The position numbers and the translations under genes were made by a program. 64,000 nt of DNA from positions 1-64,000 of the forward strand of contig NZ_VHLH01000004.1 in NCBI RefSeq assembly GCF_006516965.1, read 5' to 3'. Below are positions 7,454 to 10,582 of the stretch, piece by piece. The DNA is from Pararhizobium mangrovi. GTDB lineage: Bacteria > Pseudomonadota > Alphaproteobacteria > Rhizobiales > Rhizobiaceae. Each line of letters opens with the position of its first letter. Positions within the stretch are counted from its first letter, which is position 1. The notes under the pieces are model-generated. The model was not told the DNA's origin, did no database searches, and was given only the letters and a program-made list of their open reading frames with translations.

Positions 7454-7645
7454 TCAGTTCCCAGTTCCGGAACACGCCGTCCGTGAGCAGTATAATCTCC
7501 AAGCTGCGCCAATTATAAAGGTTGTCATAGCGATCGCCATGAAGGCTGCAGCCATCAGCATCAAGGTTGCCGTCAAGAACAGATGGCCGGCCAAGAGCAG
7601 ACTGCCGGCAAATCGTTCCGCAATGTTCGAATAAGCGATTTCCAT
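7454..7645 (-). CDS. Small phage membrane protein (63 residues)
   Basis: The ATG at 7645 is preceded by GGAGGGG. The product is one long hydrophobic stretch (about residues 14-48, Ala/Met/Leu/Thr-rich, enough for one long or two short helices) with a short basic Cys-containing tail. It faces the bidirectional terminator and is transcribed away from the lysis genes. Small inner-membrane proteins at this place in prophages can be exclusion factors or accessory holins/antiholins; nothing in the sequence decides between them. Confidence 0.55.
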   Translation of the reverse strand: MEIAYSNIAERFAGSLLLAGHLFLTATLMLMAAAFMAIAMTTFIIGAAWRLYCSRTACSGTGN

Positions 7646-7795: not shown

Positions 7796-7870
7796 CTAAC
7801 GGTCGGCGGCCAAACGTGCGAGCGCATACGTGGCGGCAATAAAGCCGGCGGTGAGTGCGAGATAAAGCAT
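7796..7870 (-). CDS. Tiny membrane peptide (24 residues)
   Basis: The ATG at 7870 has GAGGGG about 8 nt upstream, and the frame closes at 7796. The product is a single hydrophobic helix (MLYLALTAGFIAATYALARL) with a basic/acidic tail. It reads on the same strand as the 63-residue membrane protein downstream and divergently from the lysis cassette. So short a frame could be chance; the ribosome site and clean transmembrane composition are the only support. Confidence 0.4.
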   Translation of the reverse strand: MLYLALTAGFIAATYALARLAADR

Positions 7871-7950
7871 TTCTGAATCCCCTCAGGTTGCATCGACCAG
7901 CAAAACACAAGTCGAGCTATCTGTCACATCCCCACGATCAGGAGACCATC

Positions 7951-8799
7951 ATGGACCCTACCGTTCCGTCCGGAGCGGCGCGGCTGCTCGACTACGTGCG
8001 CGACACGGAGACGGGCTCTGCCGGCGCCGACAGCTACCGCACGATCTACGGGCACAACGAGGACAAGCTCGCCAAGCCGCTCACGTCCATGACGCTCGGC
8101 GATGTGGTCGATGCGCAGGGTGGTTGGAGCAAGCGCTTCGGCTCGTCCGCTGCCGGTGGCTACCAGTTCATGCGCGCGACGCTGCAGGATCTGTCCAGTG
8201 ATCTCGGCCTGCGCGGCACCCAAGTGTTCGACCCGAACCTACAGGACCGGCTCGGCTACCACCTGCTCAAGCGGCGCGGCTACGAGGCGTTCGCATCTGG
8301 CGAGATCGGCCCGACCGAGTTCGGCCGGCGGCTGGCAATGGAATGGGCGTCTTTCCCCGTCCTCGAAGACTGTCAGGGCGCGCACCGTAAGCTCAAGCGC
8401 GGCGAAACCTACTATGCCGGCGACAAGCTCAACAAGGCGCTGATCAAGCCGGCAGAGATGGAAGCGTGCCTTCGCGAGGTGCGCGAGATGATTAATGGCG
8501 AGGCCGCGCCCGTGCCGTCGGAAATCCCGACCCAATCCCCTCGACCGACACAGGAGGCAGACATGCCCGAAAAGTCCACACCGGCCAAGCAGGTCGCCAA
8601 GGCCATCGGAGGCGGGAAGGGCGCCGCGCAGGGAGTGACCTTTGCCGGCGGCCTCGTGATCATCTGCTCGTATTTCGGGCTGATCCCGCCCGATACCACG
8701 CCGACGCAGATTGCACTGCTCTCGACGGCGGTAACCGCGGTGGTCGCGCCGCTCGTATCGTTCGTGCAGGCGTACATGGCGCCGCGCAATGCCGAGTAA
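7951..8799 (+). CDS. Endolysin (lambda R-like, GH104 type) fused to a holin-like membrane hairpin
   Basis: This is a 282-residue protein; AGGAG precedes the ATG at 7951. Residues about 8-180 match lambda R-type lytic transglycosylases: a Glu in a VRDTETGS context (E20, the likely catalytic acid), then SSAAGGYQFM, DLGLRG and AMEWASFP, aligning in order with the lambda STGAGRYQLL, QLGLKD and IWASLP segments. A Pro-rich linker (about 183-200) leads to two hydrophobic helices (about 225-245 and 252-275) separated by PPDTTPT, a holin-like hairpin. The expected role is cleavage of peptidoglycan during phage release. The membrane fusion is unusual for this enzyme class, which is normally soluble and about 160 residues long. 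A nested start is annotated separately. Confidence 0.85.
   Translation: MDPTVPSGAARLLDYVRDTETGSAGADSYRTIYGHNEDKLAKPLTSMTLGDVVDAQGGWSKRFGSSAAGGYQFMRATLQDLSSDLGLRGTQVFDPNLQDRLGYHLLKRRGYEAFASGEIGPTEFGRRLAMEWASFPVLEDCQGAHRKLKRGETYYAGDKLNKALIKPAEMEACLREVREMINGEAAPVPSEIPTQSPRPTQEADMPEKSTPAKQVAKAIGGGKGAAQGVTFAGGLVIICSYFGLIPPDTTPTQIALLSTAVTAVVAPLVSFVQAYMAPRNAE
8563..8799 (+). CDS. Nested in-frame holin-like product (78 residues) within the endolysin gene
   Basis: Inside the endolysin gene, in the same frame, a perfect AGGAGG (8552-8557) lies 5 nt before the ATG at 8563. Starting there gives MPEKSTPAK, a basic N terminus and the two-helix hairpin: the size, charge layout and topology of a small class II holin. 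The ribosome site is stronger than that of the full-length gene, so independent translation is likely. Two readings are possible: a normal holin gene whose upstream neighbour lost its stop codon, or a regulated pair in which the fused and free forms oligomerise together. That is inference; the nested signal itself is directly visible. Confidence 0.62.
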   Translation: MPEKSTPAKQVAKAIGGGKGAAQGVTFAGGLVIICSYFGLIPPDTTPTQIALLSTAVTAVVAPLVSFVQAYMAPRNAE

Positions 8800-9274
8800 G
8801 CGCGCAGCGATGCCGCAGCGAGATCAATGGAGCACGGCCGGTGAAATGTTCCCCTCGCGGGTCTTCGGCCGGCTCAAGCGCCGGTTCCCGGAGCGCATCG
8901 TCGAATGGCTGTGCGCTGCGGAGCTGGTCGGATGGGGGGCGGTCTTCTACGGCCGCCCCTTCATTTTCAGCAACCCGGCCATGGGCATGCTTCGTAAGAT
9001 GGCACCGGCCGAGCTGTGGGGCGTTTGCCTGATGACAGTCGGAGCCCTCTGGATCGTCGGGCTCGTCGTCAACGGCGCTCGACACAAGACGACATCCAAG
9101 ATCCGGGCGACCTGTGCGACCGCGGGCCTCGTTACCTTCCTGCTGCTCGCACTCGGCTTTGCCGTCGCATACCCGGAGCAAATGACCGGGCTGTGGCTCG
9201 TGACGCTCATCCTGCATGTGCTCGCCGCGGCCTACAGCGTCTTTCGCGCCATGGTCGACCACGAGCGCGGGTAG
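8789..9274 (+). CDS. Four-helix phage membrane protein downstream of the endolysin/holin
   Basis: This 161-residue protein starts 11 nt inside the lysis gene with no strong ribosome site, so it is probably coupled to it. A basic N-terminal region (about 1-38) precedes four predicted membrane helices at roughly 40-62, 72-95, 104-126 and 132-155. Proteins of this shape are common in lysis regions of alphaproteobacterial phages but have no established function; second holin, antiholin or membrane-stabilising roles are all possible. No spanin-like lipobox is visible. Confidence 0.68.
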   Translation: MPSKRAAMPQRDQWSTAGEMFPSRVFGRLKRRFPERIVEWLCAAELVGWGAVFYGRPFIFSNPAMGMLRKMAPAELWGVCLMTVGALWIVGLVVNGARHKTTSKIRATCATAGLVTFLLLALGFAVAYPEQMTGLWLVTLILHVLAAAYSVFRAMVDHERG

Positions 9275-9280
9275 GGCGGC

Positions 9281-9646
9281 ATGGGGGACGTAATGACCAT
9301 GGCATCAGTACCGGACTGGCTCGTCTATATCGCGGTCGGCGTCGGCATCGCGATCTCGACGGCGATTGGCCGGCTCGGCATGCAGTGGGGCCGAGCAAAG
9401 CCGCACGGCCAGGCCGGTGAGCAAAATTTTCAGCTATCAGGCGCGCTGGTTGATTCCTCGGCCGTCCGGCAGATGGCGAGCGCTGTGGAGGCGCAGACCA
9501 TGGAGATGATCGAGCAGCGAAAGATGGCTGAGAACCACGCTCATTCCCTCAATCGCCGGCTGGAAGCACTTGGCGACCAGGTCGACCATCTGACGGGCGA
9601 ACTGCGGCTGCTGCGCGAAGAGATGATCCGGGGCGTGCGCTTATAG
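9281..9646 (+). CDS. Phage membrane-anchored coiled-coil protein
   Basis: This 121-residue protein lies 6 nt after the previous gene. One N-terminal membrane helix (about residues 10-32, VPDWLVYIAVGVGIAISTAI) is followed by a polar linker and a long amphipathic helix (about 60-115) with heptad-like Leu/Met spacing. The topology recalls an inner-membrane spanin or phage membrane-tethered adaptor, but no outer-membrane partner gene is visible nearby. ATGs at 9293 and 9299 are alternative starts. Its place as last gene of the lysis block suggests a role in lysis or envelope modification. Confidence 0.65.
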   Translation: MGDVMTMASVPDWLVYIAVGVGIAISTAIGRLGMQWGRAKPHGQAGEQNFQLSGALVDSSAVRQMASAVEAQTMEMIEQRKMAENHAHSLNRRLEALGDQVDHLTGELRLLREEMIRGVRL

Positions 9647-9679: not shown

Positions 9680-10582
9680 ATGGGAAAATTCGACGACACA
9701 GATCCAATTGTCGCGCTTACGATCCTCGTTCGGAACGAAGCAGATATCATCGAAACGAATATTGATTTCCACCGCCGAGCCGGGTTCGACGTCATCATCG
9801 TCACCGACAATGCTTCTACCGACGGGACTAGCGAGATCCTGCGCCAACGGGAACAACTCGGTCAGATCGTCCTTCTGCAAGAACGATCAGACGCATATCG
9901 TCAGGACGCATGGGCCACGAGGATGGCGCTGCTCGCGCGAGAAACGTATGGCGCAGACTGGGTATTGAGCGGCGATGCTGATGAGTTCTGGGTTGTGCCA
10001 GGCGGTTCGATCAAGGATGAGTTGACCAACCGAAAGAAGCTCGTTCTGGCATGCGAGCGACGGAACATGGTGACAGATTACGAAACTCTCGGAAGAGAGC
10101 CGTGGTGGGAAGCCCTGATATACCGAGCGGATCCGCCTGTTCCCATGCCGAAGAACCACGACCGCATACGCGACCCACTGCCGGCCCCGTATTTCTTCCT
10201 GCAACTGCCGGGGAAGTCAGCCTTCAGCCTCGACGGTCTAGAGCGGATTGAGCGAGGCGCGCATAACGCCGTATATGATTCTGGGAAGCCGCAGAAAGGG
10301 GAATGTGGTATCGTCATCTATCACTTCCCGCTTCGCGATATCGCCGAATTCGAACGTTCGACCCGTCAGATCGGAGCTGCCATTCGCTCGGACGCATCGC
10401 TTCAACCAAATACATCGTGGAAGTATCGACGGTGGCTCGCGCAACTTGAGGCGGCGGGCTCAATCGATACCGCTGTTGCCGAAGCGCTGCCCAGCTCTGT
10501 TGAGCTTTCGGAGAGGCTCATGAACAACGAGGCAATCCAGGATACGTGGATGCGTGATCGTCTTCGAAAGATCGTGGCGTGA
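9680..10582 (+). CDS. Phage-borne glycosyltransferase, family 2 (GT-A fold)
   Basis: This 300-residue soluble protein has the GT-A nucleotide-sugar fold: an ALTILVRNEAD opening strand, then VIIVTDNASTDGT (about residues 36-48), and a DADEF metal-binding motif near residue 99 (DxD type). The C-terminal half lacks membrane helices, so it is not a bactoprenol glucosyltransferase of the Gtr type. Codon use is more AT-rich than in the tail genes, and there is no good ribosome site, pointing to independent acquisition. Prophage glycosyltransferases commonly alter LPS or other surface glycans and block superinfection; substrate and acceptor here are unknown. Confidence 0.75.
   Translation: MGKFDDTDPIVALTILVRNEADIIETNIDFHRRAGFDVIIVTDNASTDGTSEILRQREQLGQIVLLQERSDAYRQDAWATRMALLARETYGADWVLSGDADEFWVVPGGSIKDELTNRKKLVLACERRNMVTDYETLGREPWWEALIYRADPPVPMPKNHDRIRDPLPAPYFFLQLPGKSAFSLDGLERIERGAHNAVYDSGKPQKGECGIVIYHFPLRDIAEFERSTRQIGAAIRSDASLQPNTSWKYRRWLAQLEAAGSIDTAVAEALPSSVELSERLMNNEAIQDTWMRDRLRKIVA

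Follow-up and report, generated by a model that had tools for sequence, protein, structure and literature searches.

The endolysin gene at positions 7951 to 8799 of the window, the 64,000-nucleotide stretch of Pararhizobium mangrovi DNA that was analysed, was found to end in a two-helix membrane hairpin that recurs as a module on several kinds of phage lysis enzyme and that carries, in the window, an in-frame ribosome-binding site and ATG of its own. The whole explanation proposed for this gene, an endolysin-holin fusion in which a muramidase of the lambda R type, a linker and the hairpin give two co-assembling products, was given even chances. For its parts, it was judged fairly probable that the fusion replaces a holin gene, translation of the free hairpin was favoured with slightly less assurance, and action of the free hairpin as a holin was regarded as somewhat doubtful. 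Two products, a tethered enzyme of 282 amino acids and a free hairpin of 78, are likely because the module of the window, like some of its other copies, has retained a ribosome-binding site and an ATG; we infer that initiation would take place at 8563 and that the products would co-assemble and form holes.

The coordinates of the features are listed in Table 1. The mechanical list of open reading frames had begun the gene at a GTG (7855, 314 amino acids), and this start, with a weak Shine-Dalgarno energy of -4.4, was rejected in favour of the ATG at 7951, which together with its AGGAGA is most plausibly the start of the full frame. An AGGAGG and an ATG at 8563 in frame within the endolysin gene, opening a 78-residue two-helix reading frame, had been claimed in the initial annotation and were borne out by the sequence. 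The two are 5 nt apart, the predicted product equals the last 78 residues of the full frame, both frames share one stop codon (TAA, 8797-8799), and the AGGAGG-ATG pair lies at the edge of the two-helix module, which is a domain boundary in the endolysin gene. Two possible small hydrophobic ORFs were also seen on the minus strand between the tail gene and the endolysin, at 7454-7645 (63 aa) and 7796-7870 (24 aa, MLYLALTAGFIAATYALARLAADR).

Table 1 Features of the endolysin gene and of the genes that follow it in the window
Feature	Position	Strand	Extent	Basis or remark
Endolysin with C-terminal two-helix membrane tail	7951-8799	+	282 aa, stop included	Open frame; phrog_90; Shine-Dalgarno AGGAGA at 7940-7945, energy -7.4
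Catalytic domain, predicted lambda lysozyme fold	7951-8484	+	Residues 1-178	AlphaFold2 model matched to 3d3d and 1am7
Glu20, likely catalytic acid	8008-8010	+		Invariant in 14/14 aligned sequences
Flexible linker	8485-8622	+	Residues 179-224	pLDDT <50 for residues 204-225
Internal Shine-Dalgarno AGGAGG	8552-8557	+		Duplex energy -10.3 kcal/mol
Nested in-frame ORF, two-helix hairpin	8563-8799	+	78 aa, stop included	Module homologues in family genomes
Predicted first transmembrane segment	8635-8685	+	Residues 229-245	Kyte-Doolittle 2.08; model helix 225-241
Predicted second transmembrane segment	8716-8766	+	Residues 256-272	Kyte-Doolittle 2.12; model helix 251-281
Four-TM membrane protein, rival holin or partner	8789-9274	+	161 aa	Overlaps endolysin stop by 11 nt; four hydrophobic segments
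One-TM protein with polar tail, next in cassette	9281-9646	+	121 aa	

The enzyme part matched the PHROG endolysin family phrog_90 (E 7.3e-34, residues 3-184), and no match to Pfam or NCBIfam was obtained at E 1. In an AlphaFold2 model built from 14 sequences (mean pLDDT 78.5), confidence was high over most of the enzyme domain, the linker was disordered and the C-terminus formed two helices. The top structure match of the modelled enzyme domain was the cyanophage baseplate enzyme 8kea (Z 11.8), followed by 3d3d (Z 9.4; 136 residues, 3.6 A) and 1am7 (Z 9.0; 142 residues, 3.9 A), all rows beyond these three lying below 5, and a Foldseek search of the PDB gave no match at E 0.001. By the fold of the model, with the 3d3d and 1am7 matches, the earlier assignment of the enzyme to the phage lambda lysozyme (R) type was borne out. 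Glu20 of the window enzyme may correspond to lambda Glu19. The description of the full frame as an enzyme tethered to the same hairpin also held, with a predicted lambda-type fold and two hydrophobic C-terminal segments; enzymes of the lambda R type are normally soluble single-domain proteins, whereas the window enzyme has a C-terminal two-helix membrane tail.

The charges summed over 21 modules (K+R / D+E) were 50/34 before the helices, 4/36 in the loop and 45/20 after the helices, and from this distribution the hairpin is predicted to have both termini inside (N-in/C-in), with the enzyme side in the cytoplasm. N-in/C-in is the topology given for class II holins in the available part of PMC9636201. 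Class II holins have two TM segments, the N-in/C-in orientation and a dual start; the hairpin resembles them in size, number of helices, charge-predicted topology and position within the lysis cassette, and differs in being fused to, and nested in, the enzyme gene. Scans of 21 module copies against Pfam and PHROG placed the hairpin in no known holin sequence family.

The best viral structure match of the model was the endolysin of Rhizobium phage Paso (QOE32135.1, E 1.3e-14), a related lambda-lysozyme-like enzyme (44.6% over residues 1-176) with a transmembrane part. It is annotated as a signal-anchor-release (SAR) endolysin, and the name in the record together with the structure match would suggest the same class for the window enzyme. 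This assignment is highly improbable, as both hydrophobic segments stand at the C-terminal end, the charged N-terminus belongs to the enzyme fold with no signal anchor there, and the charges predict a cytoplasmic enzyme side. The Paso genome has a class I holin annotated at another place, and its presence in a genome with a related membrane-tailed enzyme counts against the endolysin-holin fusion reading.

The presence of some AGGAGG-ATG inside a gene is unremarkable by itself, because 4 AGGAGG-N4..10-ATG sites occurred on both strands of the window compared to 1.63 expected (at least 4 in 12 of 100 shuffles), and 3 in-frame internal AGGAGG-ATG sites, the one at 8563 included, occurred in 319 modelled genes (394,725 bases) of the same genome. 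Codon usage makes an AGGAGG fairly likely where Gln-Glu-Ala is encoded (CAG makes up 0.89 of the Gln codons and GAG 0.56 of the Glu codons), and mRNA folding around 8563 was ordinary, being neither open nor closed to an unusual degree (z -0.11). What is remarkable is the strength of the site: a duplex energy of -10.3 kcal/mol was attained at 6 of 1862 in-frame ATGs inside genes and at 5.3% of the 319 chosen gene starts, the endolysin's own start being weaker. It is the place of the site at the module edge, and its recurrence in other module copies, that give it an above-chance standing.

Recurrence was counted over the 60 codons before the core lysine, with the expectation obtained by codon permutation. 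An ATG with a Shine-Dalgarno energy of -7 or lower was present in 7 of 22 fused module copies compared to 1.76 expected (P 5.5e-4), namely the window, L196, L200, L201, L203, L206 and L231, with L200, L201 and L231 being three copies within one genome. In the controls, a strong internal ATG was found in 1 of 52 enzymes with other membrane tails (2.02 expected) and, inside the catalytic domain, in 4 of 52 (4.58 expected). Without the prompting case and near copies the count was 4 of 17 (1.21 expected, P 0.022 at -7), with P from 0.05 to 0.19 at four other energy thresholds on the same 17 copies. Several copies had a Met at the same place, before IGHNGGP-type linkers. When GTG starts were added the count rose to 13 of 22 (4.39 expected); the conclusion was based on ATG only because the GTG controls were also somewhat high (16 of 52, 12.65 expected).

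A strong internal ATG was absent from 15 of the 22 module copies, 7 of which had no in-frame ATG in the 60 codons tested; among the five other lambda-R-type enzymes with the module, three (L202, L204, L205) were without one. The internal start is therefore enriched in this module, yet it is neither essential nor a constant element of the arrangement. Some relatives, like the window, may produce the nested protein, and elsewhere the module may work as a fused tail without it.

These counts bear on the possibility that the tail is a mere membrane-anchoring or membrane-crossing domain of a single-product enzyme, as in Enc34, M4Lys and LysAP, and that the internal AGGAGG-ATG is unused or functionless, which was considered possible but well short of an even chance. 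C-terminal membrane segments are usual in these enzymes (at least one in 55 of 65 dereplicated enzymes by Kyte-Doolittle, the window included), C-terminal two-helix endolysins are known (PMC8943055), and holin-independent lysis on overexpression has been reported for M4Lys in the available text of PMC7143992. The flat counts in the 52 enzymes with other tails, and the module copies without a strong ATG, are what an anchor would lead one to expect, but the rarity of sites as strong as that of the window, its position at the module edge, the confinement of the internal-start excess to this module, and the occurrence of the module as a gene of its own argue against an anchor alone.

The distribution of the hairpin was followed through whole-protein relatives collected from viral contigs, named genomes and further genomes near that of the window, and through a family search that also gave tail-only matches. 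A module profile made from 11 copies found 26 places in 21 of 394 same-family genomes, the window's included. These comprised 22 fused copies, 1 clean stand-alone copy (L233), 1 fragment without a start codon (L223) and 2 weak, small stand-alone candidates (L228, E 3.9e-5; L230, E 0.003) that were not used as evidence. The 22 include L234, a hybrid whose enzyme is mostly replaced by another frame; in this hybrid frame (L234/L198) the other frame fills most of the lambda-R enzyme, and the enzyme end and the hairpin are still in frame.

The same tail was carried by an amidase with SH3 and Phage_lysozyme2 domains, by PF11860 muramidases with or without a peptidoglycan-binding domain, by PF00959, PF00182 and Amidase_2 enzymes and by PF18013 alone (Pfam scan of a sample), and by five other lambda-R-type enzymes in other genomes. 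The free-standing copy L233 was a 91-aa gene (profile E 1.1e-14) located after a PG-binding/M15-peptidase endolysin and a lipoprotein-like gene, which is a lysis cassette. An enlarged profile run over 397 genomes of the order found the module in the window's own genome only (396 negative), and the hairpin was not found in phage records or plasmids. Among viral contigs, some queries for the hairpin gave no match, and others gave three contigs with the module between them. The sole other hairpin-alone match among 201 genomes (L151, E 6e-4) lay within a 438-aa frame and was attributed to chance.

The DNA similarity between module copies on different enzymes stopped 5-9 nt past the stop codon in seven pairs, and in the same pairs its 5-prime end lay 23 to 108 nt before the core lysine; in other pairs the similarity ran beyond the stop or ended within the frame. 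The tail is a mobile module and not the product of a lost stop codon. A sequencing error that deleted a stop, raised in the initial annotation as the case against a nested holin, or a recent mutation that took out the stop between enzyme and hairpin, is hardly credible: no evidence in its support was found, the same tail is fused at 21 other loci (five with the same enzyme in other genomes), and the protein alignment with L202 is unbroken over residues 1-282.

It was considered that the 5-prime edge of the module might be the ribosome-binding site, and this was dropped; the edge varies, and the shared linker motif IGHNGGP can explain part of it. The motif (I/L/V)GH(N/D)(G/S)GP recurs in unrelated phage proteins (L247, L248, L259-L264), large ORFs that read by eye like terminase, portal and DNA polymerase, and in the endolysin linkers of L200, L202, L203, L206, L219, L220, L226, L227, L229, L231 and L234. 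Short stretches of 23-36 nt were 86-95% identical between endolysins of different enzyme class, and the motif could be a joint for recombination or a functional peptide. In genome G631 the module occurs three times, on L200 (a PF11860 muramidase), on the closely similar L201 and on L231 (a PF00959 lysozyme), and the DNA similarity of L231 to L200 and L201 goes on for at least 600 nt past the stop.

For the comparison of tails with neighbouring genes, 117 enzyme sequences were dereplicated at 90% identity and cover to 65, the window included. Six were left out as distant, truncated or broken (L056, L087, L109, L111, L112, L148), as was L022 with less than 350 nt downstream, giving n = 58. By a definition of the separate gene that was set after the neighbours had been viewed, a small two-TM gene at the stop was absent from 39 of 40 enzymes with a two-helix tail and present at 13 of 18 whose tail was short or missing (Fisher 3.4e-8, on related rows). 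Five of the six dropped rows were tail-less or short-tailed without a separate gene, so that dropping them favoured the fusion reading; with the six restored the figures were 40 of 41 without and 13 of 23 with the gene (Fisher 1.0e-6, again on related rows), 10 of the 23 short-tailed or tail-less enzymes having no qualifying gene. Homologues with separate and with fused genes, for which the initial annotation had proposed a search, thus both exist, separate two-TM genes being at 1 of 40 two-helix-tailed enzymes (1 of 41 restored). The exclusion of tail and separate gene supports an endolysin-holin fusion. In the lone exception, the two-helix-tailed L015, the small gene at the stop looks on inspection like an Rz-like protein with one TM segment.

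All 13 separate genes were scanned against PF23987 (Phage_holin_10); 5 were past the cut-off, 8 had E <1e-4 and 3 gave no match. The enzyme with the highest catalytic identity to that of the window (L002, 69-70%) is short-tailed, and a PF23987 holin (51.5 bits) begins on the last base of its stop codon. The genome of L002 (G015) also has the two-helix-tailed copy L015, and its sole PF23987 match adjoins the short-tailed enzyme. Genome G646 likewise combines the two arrangements, the short-tailed L129/L208 with a separate two-TM gene after it and the module-bearing L202. In a search of 13 genomes, PF23987 was not found in the 11 that bear the module, and G535, with a short-tailed enzyme, gave no PF23987 match.

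A tree of the enzyme domain requires at least 12 changes of tail state (bootstrap 11-14; 6 changes forced by well-supported branches) and, with L015 taken out of the separate-gene label, at least 10 changes of separate-gene state (5 forced). The close enzymes L032 and L051 differ in both tail and separate gene, and the tail and the neighbour gene can be swapped together by one recombination. Such repeated swaps between separate and fused arrangements among close enzymes provide ready-made pairs for testing. The PF23987 genes stand at the position where the tail seems to substitute for them, with no detectable homology between the two (hhalign probability 2.8%). Judged from these alignments and gene neighbourhoods, the tail seems to stand in for a separate small class-II-like holin; this would be a replacement by function at most and not a fusion of the same gene, because the tail shows no detectable relation to PF23987-type genes.

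The gene that follows the endolysin offers another candidate for the holin. The four-TM protein of 8789-9274 could itself form the holes through which the tethered enzyme is released, with the free hairpin, if made, acting as an antiholin that tunes the timing, and this was considered rather unlikely. Its overlap with the endolysin stop and its weak start of its own (Shine-Dalgarno energy -1.5) make the gene look translationally coupled. Homologues lie near other endolysins, some of which bear the module (L197, E 1.9e-21; L227, E 5.4e-14) and some of which do not (L077, L106, L028/L132). Multi-TM genes of similar size begin 2 nt past the stop in L200 and L201; the distance is at most 81 nt for L197 and L236, and 746 nt for L202. 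However, the four-TM protein matched no holin family, its PHROG matches being phrog_8980 (unknown, E 9.2e-5) and phrog_1298 (minor tail protein, E 2.3e-4); L199 has a one-TM gene and a lipoprotein-like gene after the enzyme, with no such multi-TM gene listed within 1.8 kb; and it is the two-helix tail whose presence excludes the separate small gene. After the lysis genes, at 9680-10582, the window has a family 2 glycosyltransferase (PF13704, E 9.7e-19) at the prophage edge, which could be a host-modifying passenger gene.

Under the endolysin-holin fusion, the tethered enzyme would be kept inactive at the inner face of the membrane, with the tail in the inner membrane and the active domain inside the cell. 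Tethered and free hairpins would insert N-in/C-in and co-assemble through the same helices, as class II holins do, and when the assembly opened, the enzyme already at its rim would reach the wall. The free hairpin would add hole-forming units without the bulky enzyme, and the fusion may delay opening, an effect ascribed to the longer of the two dual-start products in lambda S and in phage 21 (PMC9636201). The four-TM protein could be a second membrane partner or the true holin. The nested holin of the initial annotation is upheld in part: the anatomy, the fold, the homology and mobility of the module, the exclusion of tail and separate gene and the enrichment of the start are borne out, but the module copies without a strong ATG, the lack of detectable homology to separate holins and the rival four-helix gene count against the nested reading. 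A more far-reaching version, in which a mobile holin gene with its own ribosome-binding site and start has spread by in-frame fusion to the 3-prime ends of unrelated endolysin genes, the tethered enzyme and the free holin co-assemble, and the ratio of the two starts on one mRNA sets the timing of lysis with the fusion as brake and cargo, was held to be improbable in its entirety.

The gene shares features with several described systems. A survey (PMC9430671) reports that phages of Gram-positive hosts commonly have endolysins with internal starts; it set Gram-negative hosts aside because such starts were considered unlikely in their phages. In lysA of mycobacteriophage Ms6 an in-frame embedding yields a shorter enzyme (PMC3111421). 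In the available text of both sources the in-frame internal ATG with a Shine-Dalgarno sequence and the common stop are as in the window; the short product is typically the wall-binding part, whereas in the window it would be a two-helix membrane protein. The nested start, if true, would allow phages of Gram-negative hosts to obtain both parts from a single gene.

C-terminal membrane tails have been described for ORF39 of Enc34, M4Lys of BSPM4 and LysAP of AP1 (PMC8943055, PMC7143992, PMC8879335). These enzymes resemble that of the window in having an N-terminal enzyme and a C-terminal membrane tail, with two helices in Enc34, and the available parts of the three papers describe no internal start. 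The Enc34 enzyme belongs to the PHA02564 family, whereas the fold search for the window points to lambda lysozyme instead, and the Enc34 cassette, as presented there, has a separate holin-like gene beside the endolysin. The route of an Enc34-type C-terminal-tailed endolysin to the wall is stated to be unknown in the part of PMC8943055 available; the exclusion suggests a testable answer, in which the tail would do the work of the holin.

A natural holin-endolysin fusion has been described from Clostridium sporogenes (PMC9527704), and like the window gene it has holin and endolysin in one polypeptide. As far as that account extends, its holin is N-terminal and its host Gram-positive, whereas the hairpin of the window is C-terminal and could be made alone. 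The window case thus joins known kinds, namely the internal start, the C-terminal membrane tail and the holin-endolysin fusion, to which it adds the test of exclusion and the mobility of the module. No endolysin gene with a holin nested in frame was found among the titles and abstract openings of the open-licence literature. An out-of-frame holin within an endolysin gene is reportedly present in a staphylococcal case. In the relatives collected here, the endolysin L134, on a contig labelled Bacillus subtilis SK6B4, grouped with those of Pseudochrobactrum-type phages, and the label probably belongs to a mislabelled genome.
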